A stretch of DNA of 53,648 bases, from contig JAIRXU010000066.1 in assembly GCA_031268095.1 (NCBI GenBank), positions 1-53,648 of the forward strand. The letters are read 5' to 3'. The first letter of the stretch is position 1. Each line of letters starts with the position of its first letter. Shown in pieces: positions 13,879 to 20,408 of this stretch. The position numbers and the translations under genes were made by a program. The DNA comes from Oscillospiraceae bacterium (GTDB lineage: Bacteria; Bacillota; Clostridia; Oscillospirales; Acutalibacteraceae). The notes under the pieces are model-generated. The model did not search any database and had not been told where the DNA came from. It worked only from the letters and a program-made list of their open reading frames with translations.

Positions 13879-15003
13879 TTGGCCAACATGACCAAGCCGC
13901 GTTTTTTGGTGCTGGAAAACGGCCGCGTCTTTGAGGGACAAGCCTTCGGGGCGGACGCGGACGCCATCGGGGAAGTGGTGTTCACCACCAACATGACCGG
14001 CTATCTCGAGACGCTGACGGATCCCAGCTATGAAGGGCAGATTGTTCTGCAAACCTTCCCGCTGATCGGCAATTACGGCGTCAACCCCAAGGATCAGGAA
14101 AGCCGGAAATCGTTCGTACAAGGGTATATCGTCAGCCAGTGGTGTCAATCGCCCTCCCATTTTTGCTGCGAGGGGGCGCTTGACGCCTTTTTGAAAGCCC
14201 AGGGAATTCCCGGCCTTTGCGGGATCGACACCCGGGCACTGACCAAACTGATCCGGACCGCCGGGGTGCTGCGCGGCGCATTGGCGGACGATCCGGCGCA
14301 AATTTCTCAGGACATGCTGCGCACGTTCCGGATTGGCGACGCTGTTTCACGCGTGACGCTGAACGAGCCAGCGCGCACCCCTGCCCACCCGGATCCCGCG
14401 CGGCAGACGGCCTCCCGGCTCCTGCGGGTGGTGCTGTGGGATTTCGGCGTGAAAGACAGCTCTGTTCACCGTCTGGCCGACCGGGGCTGTGACGTCACCG
14501 TTGTCCCCTCGTCCTGGACGGCGGCGCAGATCCTGGCGGAACAGCCGGACGGTGTGCTGCTTTCCAACGGCCCCGGCGATCCGGAAGAAAATACCGCTGT
14601 GATCGCGGAAATCCGCAAGCTCGTCGAAAGCGGGACGCCGATTTTTGGCATCTGCCTCGGGCATCAGCTGCTGGCCCTGGCCAACGGCGGCGCGACGGAG
14701 AAACTTAAGTACGGTCACCGGGGTGGGAACCACCCTGTCCGGGACCTGGTCACCGGACGGACTTACATCACCAGCCAGAACCACGGCTACGCCGTCCGGC
14801 TGCAGGAAGATCAGCTGCCCCAGAACGCCCGGCCCCGCTACCTCAACGCCAACGACGGCACCTGCGAGGGGCTGGACTACGAGGGATTCCCCGGCTTTTC
14901 CGTGCAGTTCCATCCGGAGGCCCGCGGCGGTCCCCGGGATACGGAATTCTTGTTTGACCGCTTCGTCGCGTTAATGGAAGGGAGGAAATTCGTATGCCGC
15001 TGA
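13879..15003 (+). CDS. carA: Carbamoyl-phosphate synthase small subunit
   Basis: The glutaminase subunit (374 residues) that supplies ammonia to CarB for carbamoyl phosphate, a precursor of arginine and pyrimidines. N-terminal CPSase small-chain domain: FLVLENGRVFEG, then TTNMTGYLETLTDPSYEGQI (around 30-50) and YGVN. The C-terminal class I amidotransferase domain has GVLLSNGPGDP, the nucleophile in FGICLGHQLL, and the His-Glu pair in SVQFHPEA. A TTG start at 13879 fits the GAGGGGGAG ribosome site by spacing; the ATG three codons later (13888) is the alternative. It overlaps carB by 10 bases, so translation is probably coupled. Confidence 0.95.
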   Translation: MANMTKPRFLVLENGRVFEGQAFGADADAIGEVVFTTNMTGYLETLTDPSYEGQIVLQTFPLIGNYGVNPKDQESRKSFVQGYIVSQWCQSPSHFCCEGALDAFLKAQGIPGLCGIDTRALTKLIRTAGVLRGALADDPAQISQDMLRTFRIGDAVSRVTLNEPARTPAHPDPARQTASRLLRVVLWDFGVKDSSVHRLADRGCDVTVVPSSWTAAQILAEQPDGVLLSNGPGDPEENTAVIAEIRKLVESGTPIFGICLGHQLLALANGGATEKLKYGHRGGNHPVRDLVTGRTYITSQNHGYAVRLQEDQLPQNARPRYLNANDGTCEGLDYEGFPGFSVQFHPEARGGPRDTEFLFDRFVALMEGRKFVCR

Positions 15004-18000
15004 ACTCCGGAATCCGGAAAGTATTGGTGATCGGCTCCGGCCCCATTGTCATTGGCCAAGCCGCCGAATTCGACTACGCCGGGACCCAGGCCTGCCGTGC
15101 CCTGCGGGAAGAAGGCCTTGAAATCGTCCTGATCAATTCAAACCCCGCCACCATCATGACCGACCAGCACATGGCGGACAAAATCTACATCGAGCCCCTG
15201 ACGGTGGAAACCGTCAAGCGTGTCATTCTCAAGGAATCCCCGGACTCTGTTCTGCCGACCCTCGGCGGGCAGACAGGGTTGACGCTGGCAATGCAATTGG
15301 CCAAAGAAGGCTTTCTCCGCCGTCACGGCGTCCGGCTCCTCGGCGCCCGGCCGGAGACCATCGACAAGGCCGAGGACCGGCAGATGTTCAAAGACACCAT
15401 GCTGGAGATCGGCCAGCCTGTCATTCCCTCGAAGGTCGTAACGGATATAGAGGACGCGGTGTCCTTCGCCGGGGAGATCGGCTACCCCGTCATCGTCCGT
15501 CCGGCCTTCACCCTCGGCGGCGCGGGGGGCGGCTTTTGCGCCAACGATGCGGAGCTGCGGGAGATTGCCGCCGGCGGTTTGCGTCTGAGTCCCATTACCC
15601 AGGTTCTGATCGAAAAGAGCGTCGCCGGCTGGAAGGAAATTGAATATGAGGTTATGCGCGACAGCGCCGGCAACGTCATTACTGTCTGCTCGATGGAGAA
15701 CTTTGACCCCGTCGGGATCCATACCGGAGACAGCATCGTCGTCGCCCCGACGCTGACGCTGGCGGACAAGGAATACCAGATGCTGCGTTCCGCCGCGTTG
15801 GATATCATCACGGCCCTGGGCGTTGAAGGCGGCTGCAACGTCCAGTTTGCGCTGCATCCCGAACGTTACGAGTATGCTGTCATCGAGGTCAATCCCCGCG
15901 TCTCGCGTTCCTCCGCCCTGGCCTCGAAGGCTACGGGATACCCCATCGCCAAAGTCGCGGCGAAGATCGCCATTGGGTATACCCTCGACGAGATCCCCAA
16001 TGCTGTCACAGGGAAAACCATGGCCTGCTTTGAGCCGGTGCTGGATTACATCGCCCTGAAATTCCCGAAATGGCCCTTTGATAAGTTCATCTATGCCTCC
16101 CGGAAGCTGGGTACCCAGATGAAGGCCACCGGCGAGGTCATGAGCCTGGGAGGCAGCTTCGAGAATGCGCTGATGAAAGCTGTCCGGGGAGTGGAAATTT
16201 CCCGCAACACCTTGCGGATTCCCCGCTGGGCCCTGTGCAGCGAGGCGGAACTGCTGGACTTCATCGCCGAGGGCACGGACGAGCGGCTGTTTCAGATTTT
16301 TGAGCTGTTCTGGCGCGGCGTTTCCCCTGCCGTTGTCCATGCCCGCACGAAGATCGACCGCTATTTCCTCGATAAATTGGCCGCGCTGGCCGCCTTTGAG
16401 CATACGCTGGAGAACGCTGCTCTCACCAGCGCGCAGTACCGCCAGGCCAAGTGGTACGGCTACCCGGACGCCGCCCTGCGCAAGCTTTCCGGCAACGCGC
16501 TTCCCGGCGAGCCCAGCCCCGCGTTCCGGATGGTGGATACTTGCGCGGGTGAATTTGACGCCGCGACACCCTACTTCTATTCCGTCCCGGAAGGCGAGGA
16601 CGAGAGCGCTCCGGCCAAACGCAGCGGCAAGCCTCGTGTCGTCGTCCTGGGCTCCGGCCCGATCCGTATCGGCCAGGGCATCGAGTTCGATTACGCCAGC
16701 GTTCATTGTGTCCGGTCCCTGCAAAAGCTCGGTTACGAGGCCGTCATCATCAACAACAATCCGGAGACCGTCTCCACCGATTTTGATACTGCAGACCGGC
16801 TCTATTTCGAACCCCTGACCCCCGAGGACGTAGACGCGATCCTGAAGATCGAACAGCCCGTCGGCGTGGTTGCGGCTTTCGGCGGTCAGACGGCCATCAA
16901 ATTGGCCAAGTTCCTCAATGACCGCCGGTACCCCATCCTGGGAACCTCTTTCGAAGGCATTGACCGGGCAGAGGATCGGGAGCGTTTCGACGAGCTGCTG
17001 GAAAAGGTGCAGGTGAAGCGTCCGGCGGGCACGACGGTCATGACCACCGACGAGGCCGTCCGGGCCGCGAATATCCTGGGATATCCGGTGCTGGTTCGCC
17101 CCTCCTATGTTTTGGGCGGACAGAATATGTCGATCGCCAACAGTGACGAAGAGATGCAGGAGTTCATGGCGGTCATTTTGGCCGACGGGGTCGAGAACCC
17201 CGTGCTGGTGGACAAATACCTTATGGGAACAGAGATTGAGGTGGACGCGATCTGTGATGGCACGGACATCCTCATCCCCGGCATCATGGAGCACATTGAA
17301 CGCACCGGCGTCCACTCCGGCGACTCCATCGCCGTTTATCCCGCCGTCCATGTGGATGACGCTATGGTAGAAAAGATCCTCAGCGCCACCAAGCGAATTT
17401 CCCTGGAACTGGATATCAAGGGCATCGTCAACATCCAATACATTATATATCACGGGGAACTCTATGTCATTGAGGTCAATCCCCGTGCCTCGCGGACGGT
17501 TCCTTATATCAGCAAGGTCACCGGCGTTCCGGTGGTTGAACTGTGCACACGCGCCATGACGGGTGAGGCCCTGTCTCAGATGGGCTACGGTACCGGCCTC
17601 TACGCTTCCTCTCCTTACATGGCGGTGAAGGTTCCGGTATTTTCTTTCGAGAAATTGCACGGCGTCGATACCCAGCTGGGGCCGGAAATGAAATCCACCG
17701 GCGAGGCCCTAGGCATTGGCAAGACACTGGAAGAAGCGCTCTTCAAGGGCCTGACGGCAGCGGGCTTCCGGATGGAACGCGGCGGCGGGGTGCTGATCAC
17801 TGTCCGCAAACAGGACAAACCGGAAATCCCGGACCTGGCCAAAAAATTCGCCGCCTTGGGATTCCGGCTGTACGCCACCGACGGCAATGCGGAGGTCCTC
17901 CGCGCGGCAGGCCTGGAGGTGACCGCCGTCGCCAAGATTCACGAAGCCGCCGAAAATACGGCTTCTCTTATCGAGAGCGGCGCGGTCCAATATGTGATTT

Positions 18001-19031
18001 CCACCTCCGCCAAAGGCCGCGACCCCCTGCGGGACAGCGTCAAGATTCGCACCCTCTCCACCCGCTTGGGCATCCCCTGCCTGACGAGCATCGACACCGC
18101 CAACGCCGTGGCCGACAGCCTACGCAGCCGCTACAGTGAGATCAACACCGAACTGGTCAATATCACCAAAATGCGCGGCAAGAAGCAACGCCTGGCCTTT
18201 ACCAAAATGCAGTCCTGCGGCAATGATTATATTTATTTCAATTGCTTCAGCCAGACGGTCGATTCTCCGGAATCTCTCTCCATTGCTCTGTCCGACCGTC
18301 ATTACGGTGTCGGCGGGGACGGCGTGATCCTCATCGAACCTTCCGACACAGCAGACGCAAAAATGCGGATGTTCAATCTCGACGGCAGCGAAGGCGCCAT
18401 GTGCGGCAACGGCATCCGCTGCGTGGCGAAGTACCTCTACGACAACGGCCTGATCCCCCATCACAAAATGACCGTTGAAACCCTCGGCGGAATCAAGAAG
18501 CTCCAGGTGAGCACCAAGGAGGGCAAGGCTTACAACATCACGGTAGATATGGGTTCCGCCAGCCTGGACCCCGCCAGCCTCCCGGTTCAGCTGGAGGGCG
18601 CGGCCATTTTGGATTATCCTGTCTGCGCCGGCGGCCGAAACTTCCGAATCACCTGCGTTTCGATGGGCAATCCCCACTGTGTGCTGTTTGTGGACGAGCA
18701 CACCGACACGATGGACGTGGCGGGGATCGGCTCTTTGCTGGAGCACTGCGCCGAACTTTTTCCGGAACGGGTCAACGTGGAGTTTGCCCACATGGCGGAT
18801 GACCGGACAATCAAGCTGCGGGTCTGGGAGCGCGGCAGCGGGGAAACCATGGCCTGCGGAACCGGCGCTTGCGCGGCGGTGGTCGCGGCGGCGGAAAACG
18901 GCTTTTGCCCGAAAGGAGAGGACATCCGCGTCCAGCTCCCCGGCGGGGATCTCTTCGTGCGCTATACGGACGAGGCGGTGTATCTCACCGGCAGCGCCGT
19001 CAAGGTCTTCGACGGAACGCTGGAAATCTAG
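14994..19031 (+). CDS. carB-dapF: Carbamoyl-phosphate synthase large subunit fused to diaminopimelate epimerase
   Basis: One uninterrupted 1345-codon frame. Residues 1 to about 1059 are a full CarB: first ATP-grasp half ([20 protein letters not shown] start), oligomerisation region about 400-550, second half starting [19 protein letters not shown], and a C-terminal MGS-like allosteric domain (about 935-1059). Met1060 begins a full-length DapF of 286 residues: [22 protein letters not shown] with catalytic Cys1137, and ACGTGAC with catalytic Cys1288. CarB makes carbamoyl phosphate; DapF converts LL- to meso-diaminopimelate for lysine and peptidoglycan. No stop or ribosome site is seen at the join, only a linker of about 10 residues. 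The ATG at 14994 has GGGAGG upstream. A lost stop codon or an assembly error are the alternatives to a genuine fusion. Confidence 0.93.
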   Translation: [1345 protein letters not shown]

Positions 19032-19066: not shown

Positions 19067-19396
19067 ATGGGTGCTTTGATTTGGGTCTTCCTGATTATTT
19101 TTGTCATTATATTTTTGGTCAACGTCATCCGAAACATCGCCCGATGGAGCAAAAACAACGAATCTCCGGTGCTCACGGTGCAGGCCTTCGTGCTTGAGAC
19201 GAGCAGACACACTTCCCATGACGCGAACGGCGGCAGCCACACGACGTATTACGCCACCTTCCAGGTGCCCAGCGGCAGCCGGATGGAATTCCGTATCCAC
19301 CGGCAAGATTATGATGCACTGCTGGAAGGCAGCCAAGGGGAACTGACGTTCCAGGGCACACGGTATTTGGGCTTCCGCCCGCTAGCCGCAGAATAA
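19067..19396 (+). CDS. DUF2500 family protein (copy 1)
   Basis: A 109-residue protein with one N-terminal membrane segment (about residues 4-21, LIWVFLIIFVIIFLVNV) and a small beta-rich soluble domain. The sequence SPVLTVQAFVLETS, followed by TTYYATFQVPSGSRMEFRI and GELTFQGTRYLGF, matches DUF2500, a membrane-linked family of unknown function in Firmicutes. Start: ATG 19067 with AAGGGGG upstream. It lies 35 bases after carB-dapF and may be on that transcript. A paralogue follows directly. Confidence 0.85.
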   Translation: MGALIWVFLIIFVIIFLVNVIRNIARWSKNNESPVLTVQAFVLETSRHTSHDANGGSHTTYYATFQVPSGSRMEFRIHRQDYDALLEGSQGELTFQGTRYLGFRPLAAE

Positions 19397-19418
19397 AAAA
19401 ATAGAGGAGGCGCTGGCG

Positions 19419-19775
19419 GTGTTTGAAATTCTTCCCTTTCTTGTTATTTCCATATTCGTCGTTGCCGGCGTTATCGTGGCGATTGCCCTCATCTGCACCC
19501 TTGGCCAATGGCGGAAGAACAACCAGGCGCCGGTCCTGACGGTGCAAGCCTTTGTATCCGGCAAGCGGACGGAGGACAGCTCTTTCATGATGATGAGCGG
19601 CGATGTACCGATGTGGATAGAAGATACGACGCATTACGCCGCCTTTCAGGTTCCTTCCGGGGACTGCCTGGAATTTCACATCAGCGGCAGCGAATACGCG
19701 CAGTTCCGGGAGGGTGACCGGGGAGACCTGACCTTCCAAGGCAAGCGGTATTTGGGCTTCCGGCGGCGGATGTGA
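19419..19775 (+). CDS. DUF2500 family protein (copy 2)
   Basis: A 118-residue paralogue of the preceding gene, 22 bases downstream. It starts at GTG 19419, with GAGGAGG upstream, carries a membrane segment (about residues 4-28) and shares APVLTVQAFVSGK, HYAAFQVPSGDCLEFHISG and LTFQGKRYLGFRRR with copy 1. The two differ strongly in the region between the first and second beta elements, so the duplication is not recent. Function unknown. A terminator follows at 19824. Confidence 0.8.
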   Translation: MFEILPFLVISIFVVAGVIVAIALICTLGQWRKNNQAPVLTVQAFVSGKRTEDSSFMMMSGDVPMWIEDTTHYAAFQVPSGDCLEFHISGSEYAQFREGDRGDLTFQGKRYLGFRRRM

Positions 19776-20000: not shown

Positions 20001-20024
20001 TTAAAATGACGGAGAGTGATAAGC

Positions 20025-20408
20025 GTGACAGTGAAACGCGGAGACATTTTTTATGCTGACCTTAGTCCGGTCGTCGGATCGGAACAAGGCGGCATCCGGC
20101 CGGTGCTGATCGTGCAGAACGACGTGGGGAACAAATTCAGCCCTACCATCATCGCGGCGGCCATCACCAGCCAAAAATATAAAACGGACCTGCCGACCCA
20201 TATCAAAGTCAACGCGGACGGCTGCGGACTGGCCCGAGATTCCATCGTACTTCTCGAACAGGTGAGAACGCTGGATAAGCGTCGGCTGAAAGAGCGCATG
20301 GGCAACCTGGAACCCCGCGATATGAGCCGGGTAGACCGGGCGCTTTCGGTCAGTTTGGGCATTTCCACCTCTGCTGCCGGCGTCGCGCAGCAGGGAAACA
20401 CGGCGTGA
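20025..20408 (+). CDS. MazF/NdoA (EndoA) family mRNA interferase
   Basis: A 127-residue type II toxin of the MazF/PemK family, very close in pattern to B. subtilis NdoA: VKRGDIFYADLSPVVGSEQG, IRPVLIVQNDVGN, FSPTIIAAAIT and RDSIVLLEQVRTLDKRRL. It would cleave RNA at short sequences. The GTG at 20025 has GGAG 10 bases upstream; GTG codons at 20016 and 20031 are alternatives. Unlike the usual ndoAI-ndoA arrangement, no antitoxin-like frame is found in the 249 bases upstream or downstream. The C-terminal tail after residue 115 (TSAAGVAQQG) is an addition to the family core. Regulation may involve the palindrome at 19981. Confidence 0.88.
   Translation: MTVKRGDIFYADLSPVVGSEQGGIRPVLIVQNDVGNKFSPTIIAAAITSQKYKTDLPTHIKVNADGCGLARDSIVLLEQVRTLDKRRLKERMGNLEPRDMSRVDRALSVSLGISTSAAGVAQQGNTA

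Follow-up and report, generated by a model that had tools for sequence, protein, structure and literature searches.

We examined a 53,648-nucleotide stretch of DNA (the window) from an Oscillospiraceae bacterium (assembly GCA_031268095.1, contig JAIRXU010000066.1), in which carB, the gene for the large subunit of carbamoyl-phosphate synthase (CPS), runs without a stop into dapF, the gene for diaminopimelate (DAP) epimerase. The fused carB::dapF gene lies at 14994..19031 on the forward strand, as do all features given below. It follows the Shine–Dalgarno (SD) sequence GGGAGG, read at 14980..14985, and forms a single stop-free frame of 1345 residues from an ATG (frame list and sequence). Profile matches to NCBIfam and Pfam place the CarB part at residues 1–1046 (14994..18131), with two synthetase halves, the oligomerisation domain, and the MGS-like allosteric domain (residues 946–1031, 17829..18086; also aligned to Escherichia coli CarB 1bxr). 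A linker, delimited by comparison with other linkers, occupies residues 1047–1068 (18132..18197) and comprises the CarB tail (NTELVNIT) and a ten-letter run after it, including Met1060 (codon at 18171–18173). The DapF domain, placed by profile and structure matches, takes up residues 1069–1345 (18198..19028). Both halves exceeded curated NCBIfam cut-offs (CarB NF003671, 1439.3 bits against 599, residues 1–1046; CarB TIGR01369, 1409.3 against 1027; DapF TIGR00652, 273.7 against 114.65, residues 1068–1343), and the Pfam domains CPSase_L_D1, D2, D3, MGS, and DAP_epimerase each scored above cut-off. The original prediction, of CarB followed by DapF in one frame, was thus borne out.

The two cysteines that it had named as catalytic, Cys1137 (18402..18404) and Cys1288 (18855..18857), are both present and align with the two that are invariant among stand-alone DapFs; we take them to be equivalent to C73 and C217, respectively, of E. 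coli/Haemophilus influenzae DapF. All ten DAP-binding residues, which we take to be N11, N64, G74, N75, N157, N190, E208, R209, G218, and T219, are also present. A predicted model of the MGS–linker–DapF region [predicted local distance difference test (pLDDT) 91.5, predicted template modelling score (pTM) 0.77] matches solved DapFs, with the linker predicted to be ordered (pLDDT 74–90 in blocks of ten). With every catalytic and binding residue examined kept, the window DapF is probably an active epimerase. Like E. coli CarB (1bxr/1a9x), the window protein has all the domains of the enzyme and scores over the equivalog cut-off, but it also bears the C-terminal DapF domain. That domain has the sequence and fold type of known DapFs (2otn, 9mro, 1gqz), both cysteines, and the ten binding residues; unlike them, it is not free-standing, and 39 of 129 such fused domains (below) lack a catalytic cysteine.

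A conserved linker, a missing internal start signal, and a fusion shared among relatives support a single bifunctional polypeptide, as was first proposed because no ribosome site had been seen before Met1060. Two separate proteins, made by an internal start at Met1060 or by proteolysis that frees DapF, are very improbable. An in-frame ATG, GTG, or TTG does occur in 118 of 118 distinct linkers examined, but an SD core precedes 19 of their 322 start-like codons (5.9%), which is below the 7.4% background for such codons within CarB, while the start of CarB itself has one in 84 of 92 cases; we found no internal-start signal above background in these linkers. Reading the window sequence, we saw no SD sequence before Met1060; its position holds Leu in several relatives, and the linker is conserved among them in length and sequence.

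The window genome (2.56 Mb, 78 contigs, 94% complete) also carries a stand-alone dapF, as a frame of 283 residues (G000:C37:7998-8834) adjoining dapL; no further carB was matched in this 94% complete genome. The suggested check for separate copies thus turned up the one gene and not the other. Because the genome encodes a stand-alone DapF, detection of a 30-kDa DapF by proteomics, originally offered as a refutation, would not be diagnostic against the fusion. Recent duplication as the source of the two dapFs was rejected, as one copy (L002) falls among the fused and the other (L001) among the stand-alone domains of the DapF tree.

The fusion, originally regarded as odd, is no one-off. A scan of genome contigs with the whole fused protein, in which loci were ranked by their match to this query and which gives no estimate of frequency, found CarB and DapF in one open frame in 80 of the 80 best-matching loci and both catalytic cysteines in 74 of them. 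The loci include Sporotomaculum syntrophicum (Desulfallaceae) and two Ruminococcus records not labelled metagenome assemblies. That an assembly or sequencing error joined two genes is scarcely credible: the window contig does come from a 78-contig genome, but the join recurs in all 80 loci, L029, L043, and L054 among them not being labelled metagenome assemblies, and in the single-contig genomes G421 and G446, so this explanation is already contradicted. In an even sample of the phylum, at least 16 of 398 genomes matched the fused query over its whole length; two more from this sample, G346 and G347, carry the fusion as well but match CarB with a gap. By the DapF profile, DapF lies in a frame of more than 1300 residues in 5 of 119 phylum genomes (G000, G264, G308, G346, and G347). 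Among 60 genomes of the window’s family, 23 have DapF in a frame of more than 800 residues (12 of them with a stand-alone frame as well), 27 have stand-alone matches only, and 10 have none. Three of the 23 long frames measure 861–997 residues (G652, G667, and G683), and that of G664 is broken; there (L257 and L258), the DapF matches of the fused gene are spread over several frames, and the match of the stand-alone copy is split too. No other DapF match was found in 35 of 45 fused genomes, of unstated completeness, drawn from the best 80 loci.

Trees of each half group the fused proteins in one clade, which indicates an old fusion with a single origin; the search of relatives thus points to one ancient event whose product several families have retained. 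The DapF tree, of 164 domains, puts every one of the 76 fused rows into a branch of 78 [Shimodaira–Hasegawa-like approximate likelihood ratio test (SH-aLRT) 96], the two extra rows, L251 and L254, being stand-alone DapFs that likely split off later. In a tree of 68 CarBs, 46 fused rows form a branch of 47 with support 100. The remaining row is an unfused CarB, L161, whose genome (G332) has no DapF match, the one clean loss of the DapF domain visible in the trees. With more unfused CarBs included, 30 fused rows lie in a branch of 32 (support 100), where the second odd row, L320, runs into the start of DapF and is cut by the contig end. The fused CarB of G077 was too divergent and was left out of this wider tree, of the cysteine-change tree, and of the substitution analysis below.

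The nearest unfused CarBs (L160 and L162) end in ELVDIT-I or DLVDIT-I and then a stop, and fused proteins typically continue past the CarB tail (TELVDIN-MR-EK--L-FTKM). This comparison plausibly fits loss of the carB stop codon with about ten residues added, as had been suggested for an ancestral carB-dapF pair. Adjacent carB2-dapF2 pairs make such an event plausible too, although they belong to another clade and the event was not recent. Nine related genomes (L194, L195, L197–L200, and L202–L204) have a second, unfused carB2, followed by dapF2 and dapL2; carA2 was seen in eight of these clusters, the ninth (L203) beginning inside carB2, and in L204 purF and pyrG lie upstream of carA2. The clusters form separate clades in both the CarB and the DapF trees and were rejected as direct precursors of the fusion. 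Because they sit apart from it, CarB and DapF have been united in two arrangements. Relatives with separate carB and dapF, which the original prediction had counted as refuting, thus exist, but the trees give no refutation of an ancient fusion.

Going by sequence, we call a fused DapF dead if it lacks a catalytic cysteine and live if it keeps both. A first alignment showed Cys at position 1137 for 88 of 116 fused domains and for 80 of 80 stand-alones. The full set comprises 129 distinct fused domains, 90 of them with both cysteines and 39 dead, whereas both are present in 90 of 90 stand-alone or carB2-adjacent DapFs. These counts led us to reject the idea that every fused domain is a pseudo-enzyme. 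Among the dead domains, Cys1137 is lost in 38 and Cys1288 in 9, with A/C (14 domains), G/C (12), S/A (5), F/C (2), S/C (2), A/N (2), G/S (1), and C/S (1) at positions 1137/1288. Of 25 further stand-alones, mostly from dead genomes and some already counted, 24 keep both cysteines. The exception, L353 of G158, is a divergent DapF-like protein (127.6 bits) without the second cysteine and most binding residues, possibly another racemase-fold protein. On a CarB tree of 77 fused proteins and 3 outgroups, the cysteine state changes 9 times on the best tree and 8–10 times over bootstraps, with 6 changes forced by well-supported branches and nine all-dead clades, one of them poorly supported. By this reconstruction, there are at least six independent changes of cysteine state among the fused proteins.

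We tabulated cysteine state, second dapF, and Ddh, which provides meso-DAP without DapF and was scored over its profile cut-off, for 78 fused genomes (G032 and G050 were left out, their fused domains not being in the table). Another route to meso-DAP is present in 36 of 39 dead genomes versus 23 of 39 live ones (Fisher p = 0.001, not corrected for kinship); G158 also has ddh, which leaves its place in the table unchanged whatever L353 may be. Neither another dapF nor a ddh over cut-off was found in 16 of the 39 live genomes. Since 19 genomes in all showed no other route and these are 16 of them, their fused DapF probably still works as an epimerase. Eight of the nine dead clades lie in lineages where most genomes at least have another route, G170 being outside this pattern and G235 and G028 being exceptions within their dead clades. 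Many dead genomes match CarB nowhere but in the fused protein (examples are six of the seven f126 genomes, and also G006, G030, G049, G116, G151, G036, G009, G605, G380, and G119), which makes the carrier of the dead domain an enzyme that these cells probably require.

Gene order around the fused loci links the two halves further. In the window, carA, which encodes the glutaminase subunit of CPS, is a frame at 13888..15003 that shares its last 10 bases, stop included, with the start of carB; with this carA as query, of the 121 distinct fused genes that have over 1.3 kb of sequence ahead of them, 119 proved to have a carA directly upstream. With every fused frame typed by its cysteines, we also looked for dapL, using a probe from L204 that matches TIGR03542 (LL-DAP aminotransferase). 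Among loci with more than 3.3 kb of room, dapL follows within 3 kb in 34 of the 62 distinct loci that keep both cysteines and in 0 of the 23 that do not (Fisher p = 6.6e-7, not corrected for kinship). The two pathways, originally described as unconnected, are thus not wholly so in gene order, the product of DapL being the substrate of DapF.

Such an order, together with the separate carB2-dapF2-dapL2 clusters, favors an explanation that we nonetheless consider unlikely: a plain bifunctional enzyme that serves co-expression, formed by stop loss in a carA-carB-dapF-dapL operon and without effect on CPS. The dead domains would then be decaying leftovers, hard to delete as truncation would harm CarB folding; the degenerate cases G170 and G151/G036 and a slight relaxation of nonsynonymous change (below) are in keeping with decay. 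The record of the dead domains speaks otherwise, with at least six independent cysteine changes after which the domain was kept and a ratio of nonsynonymous to synonymous substitution (dN/dS) below 0.25 in every group, and L161 in G332 shows that the domain can be shed. Four dead groups had median DapF dN/dS values of 0.057, 0.106, 0.066, and 0.062, and a fifth dead pair had 0.137; the two live groups stood at 0.114 and 0.179. In a mixed dead set the value was 0.231, next to 0.151 for CarB there. These ratios, for which synonymous sites are close to saturation in the more diverged groups, suggest that dead domains are mostly under purifying selection. The dead fold is also predicted to be intact: the MGS–linker–DapF model of the dead S. 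syntrophicum protein (pLDDT 91.1, pTM 0.79) matches the solved DapF 9mro with a template modelling (TM) score of 0.92. All ten ligand residues are kept in 33 of 39 dead domains.

On this evidence, we favor, with a probability of roughly two in three (about 0.66), a true bifunctional CarB–DapF that descends from one ancient fusion in Clostridia and whose DapF half has also taken on a non-catalytic role in CPS. The DapF half would have begun as an epimerase fed by DapL, converting LL-DAP to meso-DAP, and this would still be the common form, seen in the window as a presumably live fused DapF alongside a separate, dapL-linked dapF. Lineages that mostly had another source of meso-DAP would then have repeatedly lost a catalytic cysteine while the folded domain persisted, in most cases with its ligand pocket. 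Because the domain was kept after catalysis was lost several times, it is probably of non-catalytic use to the synthase, in a regulatory or structural capacity, perhaps in sensing DAP. The domain would most likely govern the activity of CPS by way of the allosteric domain next to it, possibly on binding DAP, and this would link the supply of carbamoyl phosphate (for UMP, hence the UDP-sugars of the wall, and for arginine) to that of the wall amino acid.

Several observations weigh against this reading. The window’s own DapF is live and gives no direct evidence of a second role. Nonsynonymous change in DapF relative to CarB is 1.86 in dead pairs (n = 250) versus 1.48 in live pairs (n = 454), a modest relaxation. 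For the association with other meso-DAP routes, only 4 independent pairs lie on supported branches (sign test p = 1, with too little power), and no alternative route was found in the dead genomes G235, G170, and G028. Nor is the dapL link wholly confined to live loci, as dead L302 and L303 have dapL just upstream of carA. Pocket residues are altered in 6 of 39 dead domains (L158, L159, L302, L303, L304, and L308), with many residues changed in L302 and L303 (G151/G036), so ligand binding is not universal. Across dead domains, mean retention is 0.946 at the ligand positions and 0.906 at 40 other invariant ones, a slight advantage.

The form of a second role is accordingly drawn with less confidence. 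The most specific version makes the fused DapF a DAP sensor: on several independent occasions, the epimerase would have become an allosteric domain through which the DAP level sets CPS activity. This version is tentative and on balance doubtful. A purely structural role, in which DapF is a module for the oligomerisation or stability of CPS and the ligand is irrelevant, is quite unlikely. DapF is a dimer in known enzymes, and persistence of the domain in L302 and L303 despite lost pocket residues and the predicted order of the linker speak for such a module, but the full set of ligand residues in most dead domains speaks against it, if by the small difference in retention just given. Pocket conservation thus favors sensing by a small margin, and the G151/G036 case favors structure.

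We also looked at the CarB side for traces of DapF. There are six fusion-specific CarB positions and none of them is in the MGS domain, so that no MGS–DapF interface could be read from these positions. At what we take to be the nucleotide-site residues of the MGS domain of E. coli CarB, 39 live proteins are unchanged except for one K954 change and T977N in six, the window included. Changes at the site occur in a single large dead clade, with 15 members, and at one position in G605, and alteration as a general rule of dead domains was rejected. Members of the clade (L158, L185, L211, L212, L260, L262, L263, L266, L269, L302, L303, L309, L310, L312, and L321) have some or most of these residues changed (for example, YTTNYG for KTTKSS), and their nucleotide control may be altered.

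Some fused loci depart from the common architecture. At L047:1720-6849, complete CarA, CarB, and DapF share one frame of 1710 residues, possibly a three-part enzyme, seen in one assembly. Frames of 1503–1514 residues in L185, L260, L262, and L263 (genus g47) begin with CarA-like sequence; in L185, the member searched with Pfam, this is the CarA N-terminal domain (CPSase_sm_chain) without the glutaminase domain, followed by CarB and a dead DapF. In L184, L252, L254, L261, L265, and L313, the match to the window CarB breaks at about residues 466–510, in the oligomerisation region, which suggests deletion or strong divergence there. The fused CarB at L308:5386-9414 (G077) is under its family cut-off (878 versus 1027 bits) and its DapF is dead; G077 has two other CarBs, and this protein has perhaps acquired a new function or is decaying. 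Downstream of the fused gene in the window, a tandem pair of small proteins, similar by eye, lies at 19101–19775 and 20016–20408, followed by a frame that we take to be MazF/PemK-like.

CPS is fused to other enzyme domains in CAD/yeast Ura2 and in human CPS1, and inactive domains have been kept there, as a dead dihydroorotase in Ura2 and, in CPS1, a glutaminase domain that lacks its cysteine. There the fused partners share a pathway or reaction with CPS, whereas DapF belongs to lysine and peptidoglycan synthesis. A regulatory DapF has a precedent, because an epimerase-inactive E. coli DapF(C73&217A) is reported in PMC4227774 to still activate RppH. There, E. coli DapF regulates another enzyme without need of its catalytic cysteines; unlike the fused domain, it is a separate protein and acts on an RNA pyrophosphohydrolase. 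Among the papers listed from an open-licence library, none described a CarB–DapF fusion by title or opening of the abstract.

CPS is a textbook case of allostery, and DapF has been proposed as an antibacterial target. For annotators, a DapF match in such genomes may be a dead domain. The early guess that the extra domain might alter CarB regulation is the part of the original prediction that the relatives have made most interesting, and the paired natural live and dead variants make the regulatory hypothesis directly testable. A DapF tied covalently to CPS throughout a widespread family, and repeatedly switched off yet kept, points to a control link between nucleotide and arginine synthesis and the cell wall. 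If the sensor reading is true, the supply of pyrimidines (for UDP-MurNAc) and arginine would be coupled to that of a wall-peptide precursor.

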